From Marinobacter shengliensis (GTDB taxonomy: Bacteria > Pseudomonadota > Gammaproteobacteria > Pseudomonadales > Oleiphilaceae): a stretch of DNA of 64,000 bases. Positions 55,581 to 63,656 of this stretch are shown in pieces. Position 1 is the first letter of the stretch, and each line of letters begins with the position of its first letter. The notes beneath the pieces were generated by a model. That model searched no databases and was not told where the DNA came from. It saw only the letters and a program-made list of their open reading frames with translations. The DNA lies in contig NZ_PXNO01000021.1 of the NCBI RefSeq assembly GCF_003007715.1, forward strand, positions 1 through 64,000, in the 5' to 3' direction. A program made the translations under genes and the position numbers.

Positions 55581-57953
55581 ATGACTCGGCACTATTGGAT
55601 GGGTGGCAACAGGTCTTATGAACAGGACCGTTTTTTCGAGCAATCCCTCGATAAATCTTTGTGGCGCAAGGCTGAGAGCGCAGACCAATGGGATGCCTGC
55701 TGGTACACCGGCATGCCTGCCCCCGAATTTTTCAGCCAGGTGGGGCCGGAGCGGAAAATCAATCACATCCCCGGCAACAATGCCCTCACGGTGAAAAGCC
55801 GCCTTTACCGCAGCCTGATGGACTTGCGGGATCGCGTCGAGCGGCAGCAAAAGGGCGGCAAACATCTGACCGACCGCCTGGCGTTCGTGCCCAGGGTGTT
55901 CTCGATGCCTGAGGACTACCATGCCTTCCAGCAGGCGGCGTTGGATAATCCGGACAAGCGCTGGTTGCTAAAGCCGAAGAATGCCGCCCGAGGCAAGGGT
56001 ATTCAGCTGGTGGGTGATCCGGCCGAAGTGCCGATGGAATCCTCCTGGATGGTTCAGGAGTACCTGGAAAATCCTCACACCATGCACGGCCGGAAATACG
56101 TTTTGCGGTTGTATGTGCTGGTCTCTTCGGTCTCGCCCTTTCGCGTTTACCTGTACCACCAAGGGTTCGCCAAGCTGGCGTCCATGCCTTACAACGAGGA
56201 AAACGCGAATAATCCCTACAGCTACCTCACCAATCCGGATGTGAACGCGCTGAATCTGGATGCCGAAGTGCCCGTGGAATTCGTGGATTTCGAACGTTAC
56301 CGGGCCTGGCTCCGGGAGCAGGGACACGACGATGAAGCCCTATTTGCCAAAATCGAGGACATGGTCGCCCTGACCTGTCTGGCTGCCCTGGAACCCATGC
56401 GTGAGCGTTCCCGGGTGATCGGTGCCGATACCCGAGGCTGTTATGAATTGATGGGCATTGATTGCCTGATTGATGCGGACATCAAACCCTGGATCCTTGA
56501 GTGCAACCTCAGCCCTTCGCTAGAGGTGTGCGCCGGCCCGGAGAGTGGCGGCGACATTGAGGAGCAGATCAAGGGCGGCATGGTGGCCGACATGGTAAAG
56601 CTGCTCGGGTTGAACAATTCGTCCGCCAGGGCAGCCGATGGCTCAATGGTTGAACGCCTGGTCCGGGAAACTCAGGTGGAACTGGCCAACCGGGGCGGCT
56701 TCCGAAACCTTATCCCCGGAGCGGATCCGGCCGCCTACCTGCCATTTATGGCCCTGCCCCGATTATCCGACTGGGTAGTCGCTCAGGCGCTTTCAGATCG
56801 CCCTTTGAAACAGCCCCGGTTGGAGCGCTGGGTGGCAGAGGAAACCTTCAGCGAAGACCAGGTTTACCTCTACGACACCCGCCTGGGCCACCTGAGCAGC
56901 CTGAACGAGACCGCGTCTTTGATCTGGTTGATGGCCACAGAGGGCGCCGGGCCCGATGACATTGCTTCGGCGTTGGTGGAGTCTGCGCTCAAGACCACGC
57001 CTTCGGCTCCTGATGCGTGGGCGATTCGCAATGATGTCTGGAATACCCTGGCGGACTGGATCAACAACCGGTTCCTGATTCAGTCAGAACAAGCCGCCTC
57101 AAACCCTGCCCCGGTGGAGGCTCAGCCTCCAGTACCGGAAACCTCGGCAATGATGTCGATGACGTTGTCCTGCGGTCGTTTCCGGGCGCGGTTCTACACA
57201 GACAGTGCCCCCCTGGTTAACCAGATTGAACACCTGTTCGAGCCCCTGGCTGTCCATGATGAGGCGGGTAAAGACTCCTTGCCCAGGCTGGAAATTGTTC
57301 GGGATATTCCGGGTTTTACTCTGATTCTTGATGGTCAGGTGGTCCGCTCTCGGCTGCCGCTCTCCGGCGTTGCCCAGGCGCTGGCCGATTGCCTGGCTGC
57401 CCATGCGGCTAAACACCATGACATTGCAGTGGACGCCGGACTGGTCTCCCGGCAGGACTCGGATCACCCCCTGTTTATGATCAGCCATTGCCGGCTGGAT
57501 CTAAGAGATACCCTGACGTTGGCCCTGGCCAATCGCTGGCGGGGCAACTACGGCCGGGGAGCAATACTGAACGCCGCGGAGGACTATCAGGTTGAGGGTC
57601 TAAGTCTGCCGTTGCTGCACCGGGCTGAGGGTGACGGCATTGAGGTTGCTAAGGCGGCCACAAGCCAACACTCAGGCTTGGTGCGGGCGCTGCTGGTGCC
57701 GACGGAAGGGCCTCTCCCCGAGGCGAACGGTATCCAGAGCCTGGCGGTTAATGAAGCCCTGACCCACCTGATTGCCAGTTGCTGTGCCGAAGGCGGCGTG
57801 CCTCTGGATGCCCATGGTTTCAGCCGCTTGTCGGGTTGGCTGGAGGTCTGTGAACGCTATCTGGTGGATATGAACAATCTGGAGGCCGCCGCAGAGGCGC
57901 TCTCCGTGCGGTATTCCGACAAGGTGCCGCAACGACTGTCCGGGAGTCGGTGA
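55581..57953 (+). CDS. Tubulin-tyrosine-ligase-like / PqqD-like / HprK-like fusion protein
   Basis: 790 residues. About 1-345: TTL-type ATP-grasp ligase with RWLLKPKNAARGKGI (ATP-binding Lys and Gly loop near 128-142), KYVLRLYVLV, and the metal-site end of the fold in WILECNLSPSLEV (near 304). About 414-500: PqqD-like domain (the RiPP-recognition fold) with HLSSLNETASLIWL. About 525-790: HprK-like end (ALANRWRGNYGRGAILNAAEDYQ) lacking a clear GxxxxGK[ST] P-loop. TTL enzymes form peptide bonds between an amino acid and a protein carboxyl group. First gene of the acidic-repeat cluster. The combination suggests recognition of a leader by PqqD and ligation by TTL; inference. Confidence 0.85.
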   Translation: MTRHYWMGGNRSYEQDRFFEQSLDKSLWRKAESADQWDACWYTGMPAPEFFSQVGPERKINHIPGNNALTVKSRLYRSLMDLRDRVERQQKGGKHLTDRLAFVPRVFSMPEDYHAFQQAALDNPDKRWLLKPKNAARGKGIQLVGDPAEVPMESSWMVQEYLENPHTMHGRKYVLRLYVLVSSVSPFRVYLYHQGFAKLASMPYNEENANNPYSYLTNPDVNALNLDAEVPVEFVDFERYRAWLREQGHDDEALFAKIEDMVALTCLAALEPMRERSRVIGADTRGCYELMGIDCLIDADIKPWILECNLSPSLEVCAGPESGGDIEEQIKGGMVADMVKLLGLNNSSARAADGSMVERLVRETQVELANRGGFRNLIPGADPAAYLPFMALPRLSDWVVAQALSDRPLKQPRLERWVAEETFSEDQVYLYDTRLGHLSSLNETASLIWLMATEGAGPDDIASALVESALKTTPSAPDAWAIRNDVWNTLADWINNRFLIQSEQAASNPAPVEAQPPVPETSAMMSMTLSCGRFRARFYTDSAPLVNQIEHLFEPLAVHDEAGKDSLPRLEIVRDIPGFTLILDGQVVRSRLPLSGVAQALADCLAAHAAKHHDIAVDAGLVSRQDSDHPLFMISHCRLDLRDTLTLALANRWRGNYGRGAILNAAEDYQVEGLSLPLLHRAEGDGIEVAKAATSQHSGLVRALLVPTEGPLPEANGIQSLAVNEALTHLIASCCAEGGVPLDAHGFSRLSGWLEVCERYLVDMNNLEAAAEALSVRYSDKVPQRLSGSR

Positions 57954-58035
57954 GCGCATGCGCACACCGGTTCCGGGATTTGGTAGGGCCGGGCTTGTTG
58001 TCCGGTCAACGCGTTAAAACCAAGGAGGACACATC

Positions 58036-58323
58036 ATGTCCAGAGAAGCATATAAACAGCGATTGCTAGGAAAACTTGCACGCGGCATGGCCTACACCGG
58101 CCCGGTATTTGCGGTTGTCATGGGTGCCTCGGCATTCAACGTTTCGGCATCCGAAGTATCTGCCGAGCCAGCCTACATGATGCTGGCAGCGGGAGAAGCC
58201 GAAGCGGAAGGCAAGGCCGGCAAAAAAGGCTATGGCGAAGGTGAGGCTGAAGGCAAAGCCGAAGGTGAAGGTGAAGCCGAGGGAGAAGGCGAAGGCGAGG
58301 CGGAAGGAAAAGCTGAGGCCTGA
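58036..58323 (+). CDS. Exported protein with Gly/Glu/Ala-repeat tail (candidate substrate A)
   Basis: 95 residues; GGAGGA upstream. N-terminus MSREAYKQRLLGKLARGM, then a hydrophobic signal segment (PVFAVVMGASAFNVSA) and cleavage region near VSAEPA. From residue 53 it is a nearly pure Gly/Glu/Ala/Lys tail (GEAEAEGKAGKKGYGEGEAE and on to GKAEA), strongly acidic and presumably unfolded. Its N-terminus matches that of the cytochrome-bearing protein at 59842. It follows the TTL-PqqD gene by 82 bases. Proposed substrate of that ligase; function otherwise unknown. Confidence 0.8.
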   Translation: MSREAYKQRLLGKLARGMAYTGPVFAVVMGASAFNVSASEVSAEPAYMMLAAGEAEAEGKAGKKGYGEGEAEGKAEGEGEAEGEGEGEAEGKAEA

Positions 58324-58392
58324 TCTGGTCATCGGTGTGAGCAGGAGCGCGGCTCATGCTCACCCGAACTGTCCAAAACCTGAAAACAATGG

Positions 58393-58965
58393 ATGACAAG
58401 AATGACACAGCCAAATTCAGATCACGATCCGGGTATCAGCGGCCTCATTGAGGAAAACACCCTTGCGATCGACCAACTGGTGAACCTGCTGAACATACTC
58501 CCAGCGGAATGTTATCGACAGGGTTCCGGTGTCAAGAAGCCGCAGGCGATTGGCAAGCATGTTCGGCACATCATTGATCATTACACCGCTCTGCTGTCTG
58601 CATCTTCACGCCCGGGCGCGCTGCTGGACTACGAGAACCGACACCGCGAGTTAGTGCTCGAAACGGACCGGAGGGCCGGTCGCGACCGGCTCATTCGTAT
58701 CGCACAGGAGTTGCAGGATCAGTGGCGAGAGGGTTGTGAGGGTGAACTGGCGATGCTGCACAACAGCGCCGGTGCGCGACAAATGGTCAGCACCAGTGTT
58801 GAGCGTGAGCTGGTATTCCTGGCCAGCCATACCATTCACCACATGGCGATCATCGGCATGTTGGCGGAACAGGCCGGCATGGAGGTCAGCTCCAATTTCG
58901 GCGTTCATCCATCCACGTTGCGTTACCTGGAAAAACAGGCCGAGGGTCTGGCCAGAAGTGCTTGA
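58393..58965 (+). CDS. DinB-fold protein
   Basis: 190 residues. DinB/YfiT-like four-helix bundle with the three metal-ligand histidines: one in GKHVRHIIDHY and two in FLASHTIHHMAIIGML. Such proteins are thiol-dependent or metal-dependent transferases. Its start (58393 or 58402) is uncertain: neither has a strong ribosome site. It is 9 bases before the TANGO2-like gene, so translated with it. Confidence 0.8.
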   Translation: MTRMTQPNSDHDPGISGLIEENTLAIDQLVNLLNILPAECYRQGSGVKKPQAIGKHVRHIIDHYTALLSASSRPGALLDYENRHRELVLETDRRAGRDRLIRIAQELQDQWREGCEGELAMLHNSAGARQMVSTSVERELVFLASHTIHHMAIIGMLAEQAGMEVSSNFGVHPSTLRYLEKQAEGLARSA

Positions 58966-58974
58966 GGTCACATC

Positions 58975-59754
58975 GTGTGTACGGTCAGTTGGTGCCACTC
59001 GCCCCATGGGCTGGATCTGCTTTTCAGCCGGGATGAGTCCCTCGAACGGCCCATGGCCGAGCCGCCTGTTGTGGATCGATATGAGGGCGTAAGTACGGTC
59101 ATGCCAATAGATCCTCTCGGTGGTGGTACCTGGATAGCGGCAAATGACCGGGGTGTGGCTGTCATGATTCTTAACGACTATCGATATACGTCCAGAGTAC
59201 CCCCGGGCGACGCGCAGAGCCGCGGAATGCTGGTAAGGAGCTTAAGCCAAATGAGCAACGCTGCCGAAGTCCGCAATTACCTGTTTCGGGCGACACTCAA
59301 GAACTTTCCACCTTTTCTTCTGTTGGCGTTTGAGCCTGAAAGAGCCAGCCCGACCCACTGGGCGTGGGACGGGGAGACGCTGCGGGAATCGACGTTGACA
59401 GGTGGTTCCTGCATCAGCACCTCTTCCTGGTTGCCCAGGCTGGTGCCGGCGTTACGTCGACTGTTGATTCGCAGGGCACTTGGGCACTGTCAGCCGGATC
59501 AGGCGTTCTCGAAGCTGTTGTCACTGCATCGCAATATCGAGCCCTCCCTACCGCCAAGGCTGGCTGTGGCCATGCGGCGGGAGGGCCGAGAAACCGTGAG
59601 TCTCACACACCTGCGTGTGGGTAAGAGCGAGGTGATCATGCGGTATTGGCCGGGGCACCCCTCGGAGTCTTACAGCAACGATCCTTTCCTGGCCTCGATT
59701 GGCCTGGACAGAGTGCCAGCCGAGCCAGGATGGCCAAAGACCAACTCAAAGTAA
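58975..59754 (+). CDS. TANGO2/NRDE-family protein
   Basis: 259 residues from a GTG with GAGG upstream. It opens MCTVSWCHSPHGLDLLFSRDE, the TANGO2 (NRDE, formerly transport and Golgi organisation 2) signature; after Met removal Cys2 becomes N-terminal, as in Ntn-hydrolases. GGGTWIAANDRGVAVMILNDY is the second conserved block. TANGO2/HRG-9 relatives have been linked to heme handling, which fits a cluster encoding a c-type cytochrome. Biochemical activity is not established. Confidence 0.88.
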   Translation: MCTVSWCHSPHGLDLLFSRDESLERPMAEPPVVDRYEGVSTVMPIDPLGGGTWIAANDRGVAVMILNDYRYTSRVPPGDAQSRGMLVRSLSQMSNAAEVRNYLFRATLKNFPPFLLLAFEPERASPTHWAWDGETLRESTLTGGSCISTSSWLPRLVPALRRLLIRRALGHCQPDQAFSKLLSLHRNIEPSLPPRLAVAMRREGRETVSLTHLRVGKSEVIMRYWPGHPSESYSNDPFLASIGLDRVPAEPGWPKTNSK

Positions 59755-59841
59755 CAAATACGCGGCCGGGGTGTCCGTGTTCAAAGGCCAGAAACAGGCC
59801 AGCACCCTGAATAATGAAAAAACGACCGGAGGTGACTGATT

Positions 59842-60543
59842 ATGTCCACAGAAAACAAACGCAGGGCCCTGCTTGGCAGGTTGTCGCGAAATCTAATGGT
59901 GACGGTTCCCATGATGACCGTCGTGGCGGTTGCGGGTGCAGGCTTCAACGCCGGTGTTGGTTCCGGCTTCGGGCTGATACCGTCGGCCGAAGCGGCGCAG
60001 GGAGAAGCAGAAGGTAAGGCCCGGGGAGAAGCGGAAGGCGAAGCCCGCGGTGAAGCTGAAGGTGCGGGCGAAGCCCGGGCTGAGGGAGAAGCGGAGGGCT
60101 ATGCCGAGGGGGAAGGTGAAGCCGAGGGCGAGGCAGAGGGTGAGGCAGAAGGCGAAGCGGAGGGAGAAGGCGCCTCTGCAGCTCTCAAAAAAGCGGTTCG
60201 CCGGCCTGAAGGTTACCAGCCCTACCAGGGTAACGTAGCGGAACTCCGGGAGTTGGGTGAAAAGCTGTTTAACGATAACAGCCTGTCTTCCAATGGCCTT
60301 TCCTGCGCCACCTGTCATGCCAATGGCGCCGGATACAACGCCACATTCAAGAATGAATACCCGCATAGGGTTGCCATGGGGCAGCGCGACTTCGGACTGG
60401 ACATGGTGCATCTGGATGAAATGGTCCAGATCTGCATGGTCGCGCCAATGGCTGCGGACCCTCTGGCATGGGGTTCGAAAGAACTGGCAGCGCTAACCGA
60501 GTATTCCCGGGTGGAACAGAAGAAGTTTATCGACAAGCAATAG
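59842..60543 (+). CDS. Exported Gly/Glu/Ala-repeat protein fused to cytochrome c (candidate substrate B)
   Basis: 233 residues; GGAGGTGA upstream. Leader MSTENKRRALLGRLSRNL, hydrophobic segment and SAEAAQ cleavage region; a Gly/Glu/Ala/Arg repeat (about 54-111, starting GEAEGKARGEAEGEARGEAE); then a c-type cytochrome domain with a single heme site CATCH (155-159) and a Met-bearing MVAPMAADPLAWGSKEL segment for the sixth ligand. It would carry an acidic tail between export signal and heme domain. Shares its N-terminal pattern with the protein at 58036. Last gene of the cluster; terminator at 60578. Confidence 0.85.
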   Translation: MSTENKRRALLGRLSRNLMVTVPMMTVVAVAGAGFNAGVGSGFGLIPSAEAAQGEAEGKARGEAEGEARGEAEGAGEARAEGEAEGYAEGEGEAEGEAEGEAEGEAEGEGASAALKKAVRRPEGYQPYQGNVAELRELGEKLFNDNSLSSNGLSCATCHANGAGYNATFKNEYPHRVAMGQRDFGLDMVHLDEMVQICMVAPMAADPLAWGSKELAALTEYSRVEQKKFIDKQ

Positions 60544-60577
60544 TCGATTCCTGAGTCGTTCGTGTTGAGTCCAGGTT

Positions 60578-60607
60578 GGGTGGAGCCGAAAGGTCCACCC
60601 TTTTTTT
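60578..60607 (+). terminator. Rho-independent terminator ending the acidic-repeat cluster
   Basis: GGGTGGA, loop GCCGAAAGG, TCCACCC and seven T. Very similar in stem to the terminator at 54494. Confidence 0.9.
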
Positions 60608-60666: not shown

Positions 60667-62820
60667 ATGAAACCGGGTGTTGGTGTAGGCGTGAATGAAC
60701 GTGCTGGCGGGCCGGCTTCAGTTAGATTTCCGCTCAACAGGCGTACTTTGCGGCACTGGGCAAAGCAATTAGTGGCATGTCGGCTCTGCCGCAACCTCAC
60801 CCTGACGGCATTTCTGGCGATACTGGTCATCGAAGCGGCGATCCTGATCCCCTCTTACCGAAACTACGAAGAAAATCTATTAAGTGAACGGGTGGATGTC
60901 GCAAGCCAGGCGGTGATCACTTTTCTCAAGCATACCCAAAGCCATCCGATTCATCCGGAGGATCTGAATACGCTGATTGCCAGCAGCCCGCTGGTCGGGA
61001 TTTCCCTGAGTAGGGATGGCGTGATGTATACGGCGGGCGAGGCCATTGAACAGCCAAAGCCCGCCGATGGAGTGCTTCGTAATGCGCCAAGAACCGCGGC
61101 AGGGGCCATCGATCTGGTTTGGACCTCAGACCCAACGCTCTCTGACTACGAGGTGCAAGCGCGCGTGGATGTAAGCGAGGTTCCCGCCGAACTGCTCGCC
61201 TTTGTTTTCAGGATATTGGGCTTGTCGTTGTTGATTGCGGTGTTTGTAACCGCAGTCACTATGTTTGTGATTGACCGGATGATGTTGTCTCCTCTCCTCA
61301 AACTTCGGGAGCGGATTTCCCGGGCTGGTGAAGACGCGGAACACCCGCTGAAATATCTGACACCCACCGGCCGCCACGACGAGTTTGGGGAAGTCGAAGG
61401 CGCTTTCAACAGCATGCTCAAGCAGAATGCTTCTTACCTCGCACGCTTGCATCTGCTCAATCGGGAGCTGGATCAACTACTGGATGAACGTACCCAAACT
61501 CTTCGCAAGACTGAGCAGGAACTGCAAATCCGCACGTTGTATGATCAGCTTACCGGGCTTGCCAACCGGAACCTTTTTGAAGAGCAGCTCGACCGTCATT
61601 TTGATCAGGTGACTCCGGGAGAATCCGTTAAAGAGGCCGTTCTTGTGCTTGGGCTGAACGATTTTCAGGCCCTGAACGGCCTGGCCGGACATAAGACCGG
61701 GGATCGCGTGCTACAGGAAATTGCCCGAAGGATTGGGGGTTTCAGTGCCGACCATGGTCATGTCGCCCGGTTGGGGGGTGATGTCTTCGGCTTGCTGGTC
61801 CGTGAGCACCATCGCCACCCGTTTGAGAACCTTCAGGCGCGGATATCCGCCATCATTGAGGCTTGTCAAAGGCCGGTCCAGGTGGCTGGCAAGTCCTACG
61901 AATGTGAGGTCAGTGCGGGAGTGGCCGTTATCCTTTTGGACGGCCGGGATGCCCGAACCCTGCTAAGCCATGCCGAAATTGCGATGCGTCGGGCAAAGAA
62001 ATCGTCAAGTGAGCGGGTACAGTTCTTCGCTTCGGAATTCGGAGAGCAGGTTCATCGCCGGCAGGAGATGATCAGCAGTCTGAAGGCAGCCATCCAGAAT
62101 CAACAACTTGAGTTACATTTTCAGCCTCAGTTTGATCGTCTAAGGCACTGTGCCGGCTATGAAGTTCTTCTCCGTTGGCATCACCCGATTCTGGGCGGCG
62201 TGTCACCTGCAGAATTCATCCCCCTGGCAGAGGAAACCGGGCTCATTGTCAGCATCGGTGACTGGGTGCTCGATCAGGCGGTTGCCCGGCTAAAGCTTTG
62301 GGTCAACCAAGGGTTCAGAGGTCGGATGGCGGTAAACGTGTCTGCCATGCAGCTTCACGACGAGGCCTTTGCCGATCGGATTGCGGCTCTTCTGCAACGA
62401 CACGGCGTATCGGCCGGGCAACTGGAGCTGGAAATTACCGAGACCGCATTAATGGAAGATGTCGAACGGGCCATGGCCACGTTAAATCGCTTTCGACAGC
62501 TCGGGCTGGACCTGGCCGTTGATGATTTCGGTACCGGTTACTCTTCGCTAGCGTATTTTAAGGTGATGCCGGTATCCCGAATCAAAATCGACCGGAGTTT
62601 CGTGAACGGTTTGCCAGATAGCGAACAGGATGAAGTGCTTTGCCGGACGATTATCAATATGGCTCACAGCATGGGCTGCGAGGTGATTGCCGAAGGTGTT
62701 GAAACCGAAGCGCAGGCGAGCTGGTTGGCCTTGGCGGGTTGCGATGAGCTGCAGGGGTATCTGTTGGGACGTCCGAACTCGGAAGGCTTCACCAAAAGCG
62801 GACGCCAGCATGTCCGCTAA
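60667..62820 (+). CDS. Membrane GGDEF/EAL protein with degenerate GGDEF
   Basis: 717 residues. An N-terminal helix (FLAILVIEAAILIPSY), a ~130-residue periplasmic domain, a second helix and HAMP-like segment (RMMLSPLLKLRERISRAGED), then GGDEF and EAL domains. The GGDEF loop reads GGDVF (near 371), so cyclase activity is doubtful and a GTP-sensing role is possible. The EAL domain begins YEVLLRW (E kept, A changed to V), with NVSAMQL, LELEITETALM, VDDFGTGYSS, RIKIDRSF, AEGVETEAQ and QGYLLGRP present, so phosphodiesterase activity is likely. Confidence 0.9.
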   Translation: MKPGVGVGVNERAGGPASVRFPLNRRTLRHWAKQLVACRLCRNLTLTAFLAILVIEAAILIPSYRNYEENLLSERVDVASQAVITFLKHTQSHPIHPEDLNTLIASSPLVGISLSRDGVMYTAGEAIEQPKPADGVLRNAPRTAAGAIDLVWTSDPTLSDYEVQARVDVSEVPAELLAFVFRILGLSLLIAVFVTAVTMFVIDRMMLSPLLKLRERISRAGEDAEHPLKYLTPTGRHDEFGEVEGAFNSMLKQNASYLARLHLLNRELDQLLDERTQTLRKTEQELQIRTLYDQLTGLANRNLFEEQLDRHFDQVTPGESVKEAVLVLGLNDFQALNGLAGHKTGDRVLQEIARRIGGFSADHGHVARLGGDVFGLLVREHHRHPFENLQARISAIIEACQRPVQVAGKSYECEVSAGVAVILLDGRDARTLLSHAEIAMRRAKKSSSERVQFFASEFGEQVHRRQEMISSLKAAIQNQQLELHFQPQFDRLRHCAGYEVLLRWHHPILGGVSPAEFIPLAEETGLIVSIGDWVLDQAVARLKLWVNQGFRGRMAVNVSAMQLHDEAFADRIAALLQRHGVSAGQLELEITETALMEDVERAMATLNRFRQLGLDLAVDDFGTGYSSLAYFKVMPVSRIKIDRSFVNGLPDSEQDEVLCRTIINMAHSMGCEVIAEGVETEAQASWLALAGCDELQGYLLGRPNSEGFTKSGRQHVR

Positions 62821-62823
62821 CGC

Positions 62824-63576
62824 CTATTCCTTCCATGGGAATTGCCGATAATCAAACCCTTGCTCCAAAGTAGGTTTGATCACAGCGAAATAGGGCGATG
62901 CATCAAAGTCCCGGGGGGCGAACAGGGAATGATGTCGAATCCGGAAGTACTCCCGTTGCTGGGCCTCAGAATCCGCGTCATCTTCTGAATCGATCAGACG
63001 CTCAGGCAGTATCGGATACCGGATCGACTGGAAGCCTTGAGCGATAAATGTCGAACAAATGGCCCGGGTTGGGTCGCCACTGCCCAGTGCCAGCATGGAA
63101 CGACGATAACGGGTTGGTACCGGTGGCGTGGGGCATAGGTAGCGTGCCAGGTCCCAGACGTTTTTCAGGTCGTACTGGTGCCCGAGCCGGCTTTTCGAGT
63201 AGTCGATCAGCTTACTGATATCCTGCTCACTGAGCCCCACTGGCCGGCAGATCCGGGTGTGAAAGTGCCGGTAAAACGACAGAGGCAGACAACGAATGCC
63301 TTTCTCAAGATCCGCCTCAACAAGAACATACGCTTCGCCGTCTTCAGCGACGCCCAGGCCTGCCTCTGGGCCCAGGTACAGCGCCGCATGGGACCAGGTG
63401 GACTGGGTCAGGTACTTGATGGCGGTGCTGATTCTTGTATTGCCTTCCACCAGAATCACATCGCCGGGTTTGATCGAGCCCTGAAAGGCCGCCCAACTGG
63501 ACGTTCGGGCAGAGTAGCATTTGATCTGTTTGGAAAGGTAGGCGGCGAGGCGCCTCGACAGCCAGTTTAATAACAT
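62824..63576 (-). CDS. YiiX/YebB-like permuted papain-fold protein
   Basis: 250 residues from MLLNWLSRRLAAYLS. The N-terminal motif IKPGDVILVEGNTRISTAIKYLTQSTWSHAALYLG holds the catalytic His of the permuted NlpC/P60 (YiiX) group and the ICSTFIAQGF segment the Cys. Such enzymes act as peptidases or amidases on cell-wall peptides or lipids; target unknown. The basic N-terminal helix may attach it to the membrane. The start at 63624 is rejected. Confidence 0.85.
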   Translation of the reverse strand: MLLNWLSRRLAAYLSKQIKCYSARTSSWAAFQGSIKPGDVILVEGNTRISTAIKYLTQSTWSHAALYLGPEAGLGVAEDGEAYVLVEADLEKGIRCLPLSFYRHFHTRICRPVGLSEQDISKLIDYSKSRLGHQYDLKNVWDLARYLCPTPPVPTRYRRSMLALGSGDPTRAICSTFIAQGFQSIRYPILPERLIDSEDDADSEAQQREYFRIRHHSLFAPRDFDASPYFAVIKPTLEQGFDYRQFPWKE

Positions 63577-63656
63577 AGTTACCCCGATTGCATGTGTGTT
63601 GTTATTGGTACTAGGGACAGGCAACCGGGGTGAATGTTACAGGTTAATGCACCAAT

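Follow-up and report, generated by a model that had tools for sequence, protein, structure and literature searches.

Introduction

TTLL5, an enzyme of the tubulin-tyrosine ligase (TTL) family, glutamylates the Glu-Gly repeats of RPGR, and recruitment involves a TTLL5 domain and the basic domain of RPGR (PMC13052805). Here we describe a five-gene cassette of Marinobacter shengliensis (contig NZ_PXNO01000021.1, assembly GCF_003007715.1) in which the first gene encodes a fusion of a TTL-type ATP-grasp ligase, a PqqD-like domain and a PEPCK/HprK-like domain (hereafter the fusion). Two further genes encode exported proteins with Gly-Glu-Ala stretches, a small protein that we call tail1 and a c-type cytochrome. 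The 64,000 nucleotides analysed, positions 1 to 64,000 of the forward strand of that contig, are referred to as the window. The locus is real and conserved. On balance we favour the view that it encodes a leader-guided system in which, ahead of export by the Sec route, the fusion extends Glu side chains with glutamate or, with lower probability, glycine.

The TTLL5-RPGR pair resembles this proposal in having a TTL-family glutamylase, a Glu/Gly-rich repeat substrate and a substrate region, distinct from the repeats, that serves for recruitment. It differs in that the fusion is bacterial, recruitment is predicted to run through the PqqD-like domain and an N-terminal signal region, and the substrates are exported. 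Bufferins and oxazolins, ribosomally synthesized and post-translationally modified peptides (RiPPs) of the MNIO enzymes, share other aspects: a Sec signal peptide, modification before export, a partner of the RiPP recognition element (RRE) type and, in oxazolins, a repeat-rich core. For bufferins, preliminary data indicate that the recognition sequence includes the signal peptide (PMC12452194). Their clusters also contain DoxX, which occurs at two of the loci studied here (L035, by Pfam; L123, by eye). Unlike them, the window repeats lack Cys and the chemistry is that of ATP-grasp enzymes, and no Pfam match to MNIO/DUF2063 was found among 10 window proteins or four scanned neighbours in L035. 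Tail1 may also resemble the EGKCG precursors known for oxazolins. By analogy, TTLL5-RPGR appears to be the closest parallel for the chemistry and the bufferins for leader-guided work on Sec precursors.

Glutamylation by a bacterial ATP-grasp enzyme is already known from RimK, whose target is ribosomal protein S6 (PMC8939145, PMC4431377). RimK and the graspetide ligases resemble the fusion in carrying out ATP-grasp ligation on ribosomally made proteins. However, they belong to another ATP-grasp family, and RimK acts at a C-terminus while graspetide enzymes form internal links.

We found no description of the TTL-PqqD-HprK set in the literature searched, judged on titles and the starts of abstracts for part of the matches, and nothing on ATP-grasp with PqqD and TTL or HprK. 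An older amidoligase survey may mention bacterial TTL operons. By 2010, 19 bacterial TTL proteins were known (PMC2824747), and in PMC4431377, which surveys a related clade of ATP-grasp enzymes, a term search returned neither PqqD, HprK nor Marinobacter. Each domain is known; for their combination, its bacterial setting and the substrates predicted here, the literature searched offers no description.

Results

A TTL-type ligase fused to a predicted PqqD-like domain

The N-terminal part of the fusion matches PF03133 (TTL) at 2e-54 over residues 58-315, with a score of 185.3 bits against a Pfam cut-off of 20.1. A profile of 16 fusion homologues (A5), searched against PDB sequences, was led by the glutamylases TTLL6 (7e-46), TTLL7 (2e-43) and TTLL11 (2e-22), with weaker matches to 5vlq (1e-15), tubulin-tyrosine ligase (1e-14) and the lasso protein TfuB1 (0.006). 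An AlphaFold2 model of the fusion from the A5 alignment (mean predicted local distance difference test score, pLDDT, 79.1; predicted template modelling score 0.64) had TTLL6 as its top Foldseek match (E 4e-23), and glutamylases lead by fold as they do by profile. By profile and predicted fold, the TTL domain is closest to the solved polyglutamylases TTLL6 and TTLL7 and not to tubulin-tyrosine ligase. In this respect a first-pass annotation of the window made from its letters is supported.

The same ranking bears on a rival explanation, in which the substrates and the guidance by a leader are unchanged and glycine or another amino acid would be added. The structure 5vlq, which we take to be the glycylase TTLL3, lies far below the three glutamylases that lead by profile and fold. 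The TTL family does include glycylases (PMC12340829), and the donor amino acid is not readable from sequence, so that glycine or another is possible; we consider this alternative unlikely.

The remainder of the protein was modelled separately (residues 405-785, pLDDT 81.2). The first-pass annotation had named a PqqD part, and the Pfam match to it (PF05402, 6e-4, residues 430-497) lies under the Pfam cut-off, but the predicted fold is that of the lasso proteins TbiB1 and TfuB1, both solved with leader peptides (Z 12). Comparison with the leader-bound lasso PqqD-like chain 6jx3_B gave Z 12.2 and a root-mean-square deviation (rmsd) of 1.8 over 84 residues. The C-terminal part has no Pfam match, and the model resembles the PEPCK structure 1ii2_A (Z 12.5, rmsd 3.8 over 243 residues). 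PEPCK and HprK have a common fold, and the HprK label of the first reading is probably right as a kind of fold but not as a working kinase. The latter was rejected: no P-loop is present in this part among the 16 aligned homologues (15 reach it; L037 is cut short there), and no HprK chain is among the 50 structure matches listed for the model.

A GAK ATP-grasp system was also rejected, with no NCBIfam match to it in a library that presumably includes a GAK model; at E 1 or better the fusion matched just two models, neither of them GAK. At L113:7702-10204 and L146:2188-4655 the fusion lies in two overlapping frames, with the L146 break close to the disordered linker that precedes the PEPCK-like domain. 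A split-frame contig is the same as that of L012 (Marinobacter sp. AC-23), which is Ion Torrent by name, so a sequencing error is possible there.

Active-site residues and a candidate initiator signature

Loss of the ATP-grasp residues in homologues would have spoken against the first-pass interpretation, and they are kept: K72, K131, Q159, R171, R176, K198, D294, E307, N309, L310 and S311 are identical in 16/16 homologues. We take K131, D294, E307, N309 and others of this set to be catalytic. Position 137 is Arg in 15 of the 16 and Lys in one, and is also Lys in the later-found L123.

In the profile alignment, R137 and L310 face Q180 and H362 of TTLL6 (TTLL6 numbers from a review). Q180 is the main determinant of TTLL6 elongase selectivity (PMC12366701), and Arg at this position promotes gamma-linked glutamylation of the acceptor Glu, with ambiguous wording on H362 (PMC7970040). 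The PDB chains with A-R and I at these sites are 6vzq, 6vzr and 6vzs, titled engineered TTLL6. By this rule a chain-initiating glutamylase would have Arg at the Q180 site and a residue other than His at the H362 site, and the fusion carries R137 and L310. A related ATP-grasp part occurs in four further bacterial proteins, which show Asn at the 137 site and Arg, His or Gln at the 310 site; two of these were scanned with Pfam, and TTL identity was confirmed for both. Because the fusion has this pair, the Q180 rule applies to it and the four comparison proteins lack it, the enzyme looks, from its sequence, like an initiator of chains on Glu side chains.

Two exported proteins with Gly-Glu-Ala stretches

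The tail of tail1 comprises 44 residues (15 E, 13 G, 10 A, 5 K, 1 Y) and the cytochrome linker 58 (22 E, 16 G, 15 A, 3 R, 1 K, 1 Y); Cys is found in neither. In both stretches G, E and A are each encoded by multiple synonymous codons, and therefore neither is a plain DNA repeat. The length of the Gly-Glu-Ala repeat differs among species, and codon variety together with length variation is as expected were the protein sequence, not the DNA, conserved. The first-pass annotation had described two Gly/Glu/Ala tails. The composition holds for both and the stretch in tail1 is C-terminal, but the second is internal, before the cytochrome c domain with its CATCH motif. For this reason modification of the C-terminus is not supported as a common step, and a tyrosination-like addition there was rejected.

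A shared N-terminus had also been proposed, and alignment of tail1 and the cytochrome bears it out (MSxExxRxxLLxKLSR...P). Judging by this alignment, the motif exceeds the needs of an ordinary signal peptide. Tail1 and the cytochrome each have a hydrophobic N-terminus and the fusion has none. Cytochromes of the CXXCH type are loaded with haem in the periplasm, and therefore the fusion and its predicted substrates must meet before export.

The composition of the tails also bears on graspetide-like cross-linking, in which an ATP-grasp enzyme would link Glu side chains with Lys, Ser or Thr within one polypeptide, forming macrocycles with no amino acid added. Leader-guided enzymes of this kind are established for graspetides, and the window tail1 offers five Lys as partners. 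However, a graspetide core pairs Glu/Asp with Ser/Thr/Lys, and in the three genomes labelled f178 such partners are scarce: the repeat part of L037 has no Lys, Ser, Thr or Asp, L036 has no Lys and two Ser, and L035 has one Lys and two Ser. This scarcity argues against cross-linking, as does the TTLL-like profile of the enzyme, and a term search of the available text of a graspetide survey (PMC8939145) returned neither 'tubulin' nor 'TTL'. We regard cross-linking as highly improbable. In the same f178 tails (L035:6952-7254, L036:6773-7093, L037:3430-3699) a Tyr terminates the E/G repeats; the tail of alpha-tubulin likewise ends in Tyr.

Distribution of the cassette

We sampled 124 genomes of the genus, counted by G handles alone (several named loci are the same contigs as G entries, for example L005 = G018, L008 = G003 and L007 = G033), with the G000 entry of the locus table taken from the window. 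The fusion profile matches 29 of the 124, as 27 whole genes (two of them, G473 and G460, in two frames) and two remnants (G004, G491). Among the 27 genomes with a whole fusion, the Gly-Glu-Ala cytochrome is present in 27, DinB in 27, tail1 in 26 and TANGO2 in nine. In G482 and G488 the fusion and tail1 lie at the end of one contig, and DinB and the cytochrome on another. None of the remaining 97 of the 124 genomes matches the tail1 profile.

In a class sample of 369 genomes the fusion profile matches eight, four with TTL and PqqD-like parts together (G000, G212, G322, G418) and four with the ATP-grasp part alone. The N-terminal region of tail1 occurs in 4/369, exactly the genomes with TTL and PqqD-like parts. 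In the phylum sample, 3/398 match the fusion, including G883, which belongs to the same order and a different family. Its gene row (L123) reads fusion, tail1, DinB, then genes for exported DUF302-like and DoxX-like proteins (L123:4749-5758, both named by eye), and the Gly-Glu-Ala cytochrome lies a few kb off on the opposite strand. Outside the genus, the fusion and tail1 occur together in Tamilnaduibacter, the three f178 genomes, G883 and a Competibacteraceae contig. DinB is present at two of the three f178 loci, and L035 has DoxX between the fusion and tail1 (Pfam). The set thus recurs in at least three bacterial families, or four if f178 differs from the family of the Competibacteraceae contig (L013). 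Both the conserved neighbourhood and the predicted co-occurrence of the fusion with Gly-Glu-Ala proteins are therefore found in relatives. Spread by plasmids was considered and dismissed, with no match among 72,556 plasmid records.

The cytochrome linker changes with the fusion

The cytochrome domain is found in 60 of the 124 genus genomes: 27 with a whole fusion, 31 with no fusion match and the two with remnants. The linker is Cys-rich (NPCxxKNPC type) in 29 of the 31 fusion-less genomes; the L133 and L137 linkers are Cys-rich by reading. G025 and G476, described below, make up the other two, and both have Gly-Glu-Ala linkers. DUF6969 accompanies the Cys-rich cytochrome in all 29 genomes and lies within about 1 kb in 28 (the exception is G489; the G016 copy is partial). 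Only G451 has both the fusion and DUF6969, the latter elsewhere in the genome. This second cassette, known from other gammaproteobacteria as well, has an orthologous cytochrome domain and, in several genomes, the same C92 peptidase neighbour, but its Cys linker is of the NPCxxK type, and DUF6969 replaces the fusion, tail1 and DinB. DUF6969 is not mentioned in the literature searched, and the Cys-rich cytochrome with DUF6969 may form a separate modification or metal system. At L104:4415-7189 a Cys-rich cytochrome stands beside DUF6969 (His-rich by eye), a sigma-70-type factor and a zf-HC2 protein.

The cytochrome is decayed in three genomes without a whole fusion. In G025, which has no fusion match, a stop lies in the Gly-Glu-Ala linker and CATGH replaces CATCH, and in the remnant genomes G004 and G491 the cytochrome genes are broken too. 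The breaks at these loci (L095:6000-6800 in G025, L042:8950-10250 in G004, L111:7800-8800 in G491) differ, and all are ELB17-like by eye. In G025 the apparent end of another enzyme directly precedes the broken cytochrome.

A class sample of 274 yielded six more cytochromes, from six other families, with DUF6969 nearby in three. Because Cys-rich repeats are present in all six (in L172 they were observed only past the haem domain), the Cys-type linker is probably ancestral. In the cytochrome tree the Marinobacteraceae Gly-Glu-Ala forms make up one side of a branch (100/97), with G883 apart, and a single origin of all Gly-Glu-Ala cytochromes is not rejected (p-AU, approximately unbiased test, 0.24). 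On this tree the linker switch is one or two evolutionary changes, therefore the genus counts are not 56 independent cases, and we set aside the Fisher values for co-occurrence (3e-25, 2e-13).

These observations bear on the explanation that the Gly-Glu-Ala segments are left unmodified and share no more than an operon with the fusion, whose target would be a small molecule or a different protein. Acidic segments could bind metal or partners unaided, and DinB and TANGO2 may indicate thiol or haem chemistry. Nevertheless, the linker type tracks the fusion, the fusion and the cytochrome decay together, and tail1 and the cytochrome share the N-terminal motif described above, all of which speak against it. 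We judge it improbable, a little more so than the addition of glycine.

Layout and neighbourhood of the locus

As first annotated, the five open reading frames lie on one strand with short gaps (82, 69, 9 and 87 bases) and a single terminator of hairpin and T-run (Table 1). The genome measures 4.17 Mb, and the nearest named relatives of the fusion protein are from Marinobacter. The 48-base terminator stretch folds at -16.5 kcal/mol, equalled by 5 of 200 shuffles. A consensus scan of the locus found no sigma-70-type promoter, and the same scan also missed the terminator. In many relatives the cassette is followed by a GGDEF-EAL gene (window 60667-62820) and a C92 peptidase gene (62824-63624). 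Both the Gly-Glu-Ala and the Cys-rich cytochromes adjoin the C92 gene in several genomes; in L100 the GGDEF-EAL gene is also near the Cys-rich version.

Table 1. Features of the cassette, in window coordinates
Feature	Position	Strand	Basis or remark
TTL - PqqD-like - PEPCK/HprK-like fusion, 790 residues	55581..57953	+	N-terminus without hydrophobic stretch
TTL-type ATP-grasp ligase domain, residues ~1-400	55581..56780	+	PF03133; TTLL6 profile and fold matches
R137 codon	55989..55991	+	faces TTLL6 Q180 in alignment
L310 codon	56508..56510	+	faces TTLL6 H362 in alignment
Predicted PqqD-like peptide-binding (RRE-type) domain, residues 412-501	56814..57083	+	PF05402 6e-4 (below cut-off); 6jx3_B
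PEPCK/HprK-like fold without P-loop, residues 522-781	57144..57923	+	1ii2_A; aligned homologues
tail1, small exported protein with C-terminal Gly-Glu-Ala tail, 95 residues	58036..58323	+	recurs beside the fusion
Conserved N-terminal signal/leader region of tail1 (LLxKLxRG...P)	58036..58200	+	alignments
DinB-superfamily protein, 190 residues	58393..58965	+	PF05163 1.4e-7
TANGO2-family protein, 259 residues	58975..59754	+	PF05742 1.2e-9
c-type cytochrome, signal peptide-like N-terminus, internal Gly-Glu-Ala linker, 233 residues	59842..60543	+	PF03150 (CCP_MauG) 4.6e-7; PF21342 (SoxA/TsdA) 1.3e-6
Gly-Glu-Ala linker of cytochrome, residues ~54-111	60001..60174	+	composition count
Haem-binding motif CATCH	60304..60318	+	sequence reading
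Intrinsic terminator	60578..60607	+	hairpin 60578-60600, T-run 60601-60607

Discussion

The favoured proposal, addition of glutamate guided by a leader, builds on the domain architecture, an intact active site, kinship with TTLL enzymes, the conserved leader, co-occurrence and the linker switch, each read from sequence or predicted fold. In the cytoplasm, the PqqD-like domain would grip the N-terminal leader (LLxKLxR... followed by the hydrophobic stretch) common to the two Sec-exported proteins. With ATP, the TTL domain would then attach amino acids, likeliest glutamate, through isopeptide bonds to Glu side chains of the Gly-Glu-Ala segments while the chains are unfolded and still inside the cell, and the PEPCK/HprK-like domain would serve as a non-kinase scaffold. 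The decorated proteins would be exported, with the cytochrome receiving its haem in the periplasm. This would yield a peptide in the periplasm together with a cytochrome whose linker is branched and strongly acidic, plausibly a metal- or partner-binding sleeve that substitutes for the Cys-rich linker found in related cytochromes. Leader binding, the donor, the acceptor Glu residues, the timing before export and the periplasmic role are what we infer here. The first-pass interpretation as a whole is partly supported.

More tentative is the fuller version, a bacterial counterpart of the 'tubulin code' written by polyglutamylation of tails: a TTLL-type enzyme would be directed by a RiPP-style domain to Sec signal peptides and build branched Glu chains on a secreted peptide and a cytochrome linker, and the acidic linker would have replaced the ancestral Cys-rich one when the cassette was gained, swapping one metal- or partner-binding chemistry for another.

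Several observations weigh against the favoured proposal, beyond the donor question, the sub-threshold PqqD match and the one or two changes on the cytochrome tree. DinB is conserved beside the fusion and the mechanism does not account for it; one guess is that it acts as an eraser, another that it is an enzyme of thiol or metal chemistry. At the three f178 loci no cytochrome turned up close to the fusion, and the f178 homologues have Gly or Ala for E160 and Arg for K139. G455 lacks tail1, with the profile match there being the N-terminus of the cytochrome, and the fusion frame of G418 has 617 residues, with most of the PEPCK-like part missing. In G476, a genome 76% complete, a Gly-Glu-Ala cytochrome occurs without a fusion match, and the contig ends inside the cytochrome gene. 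At L013 the fusion is followed by the end of the contig inside tail1.

Bacterial TANGO2 proteins are reported to traffic haem for cytochrome c (PMC10470608), a role that has been challenged (PMC12782551). A TANGO2 gene next to the cytochrome fits the first of these reports.

The locus suggests an undescribed bacterial route for decorating proteins in some marine species. If the proposal is true, polyglutamylation of acidic tails would extend from eukaryotic cilia and microtubules to the bacterial periplasm, and a TTL-family enzyme would be steered in a new way, by an RRE-type domain on the same chain. It would also offer a small genetic system for studies of glutamylase specificity in E. coli. 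Finally, because nature has swapped a Cys-rich linker for a Glu-rich one on a single cytochrome, the function of such linkers becomes testable.

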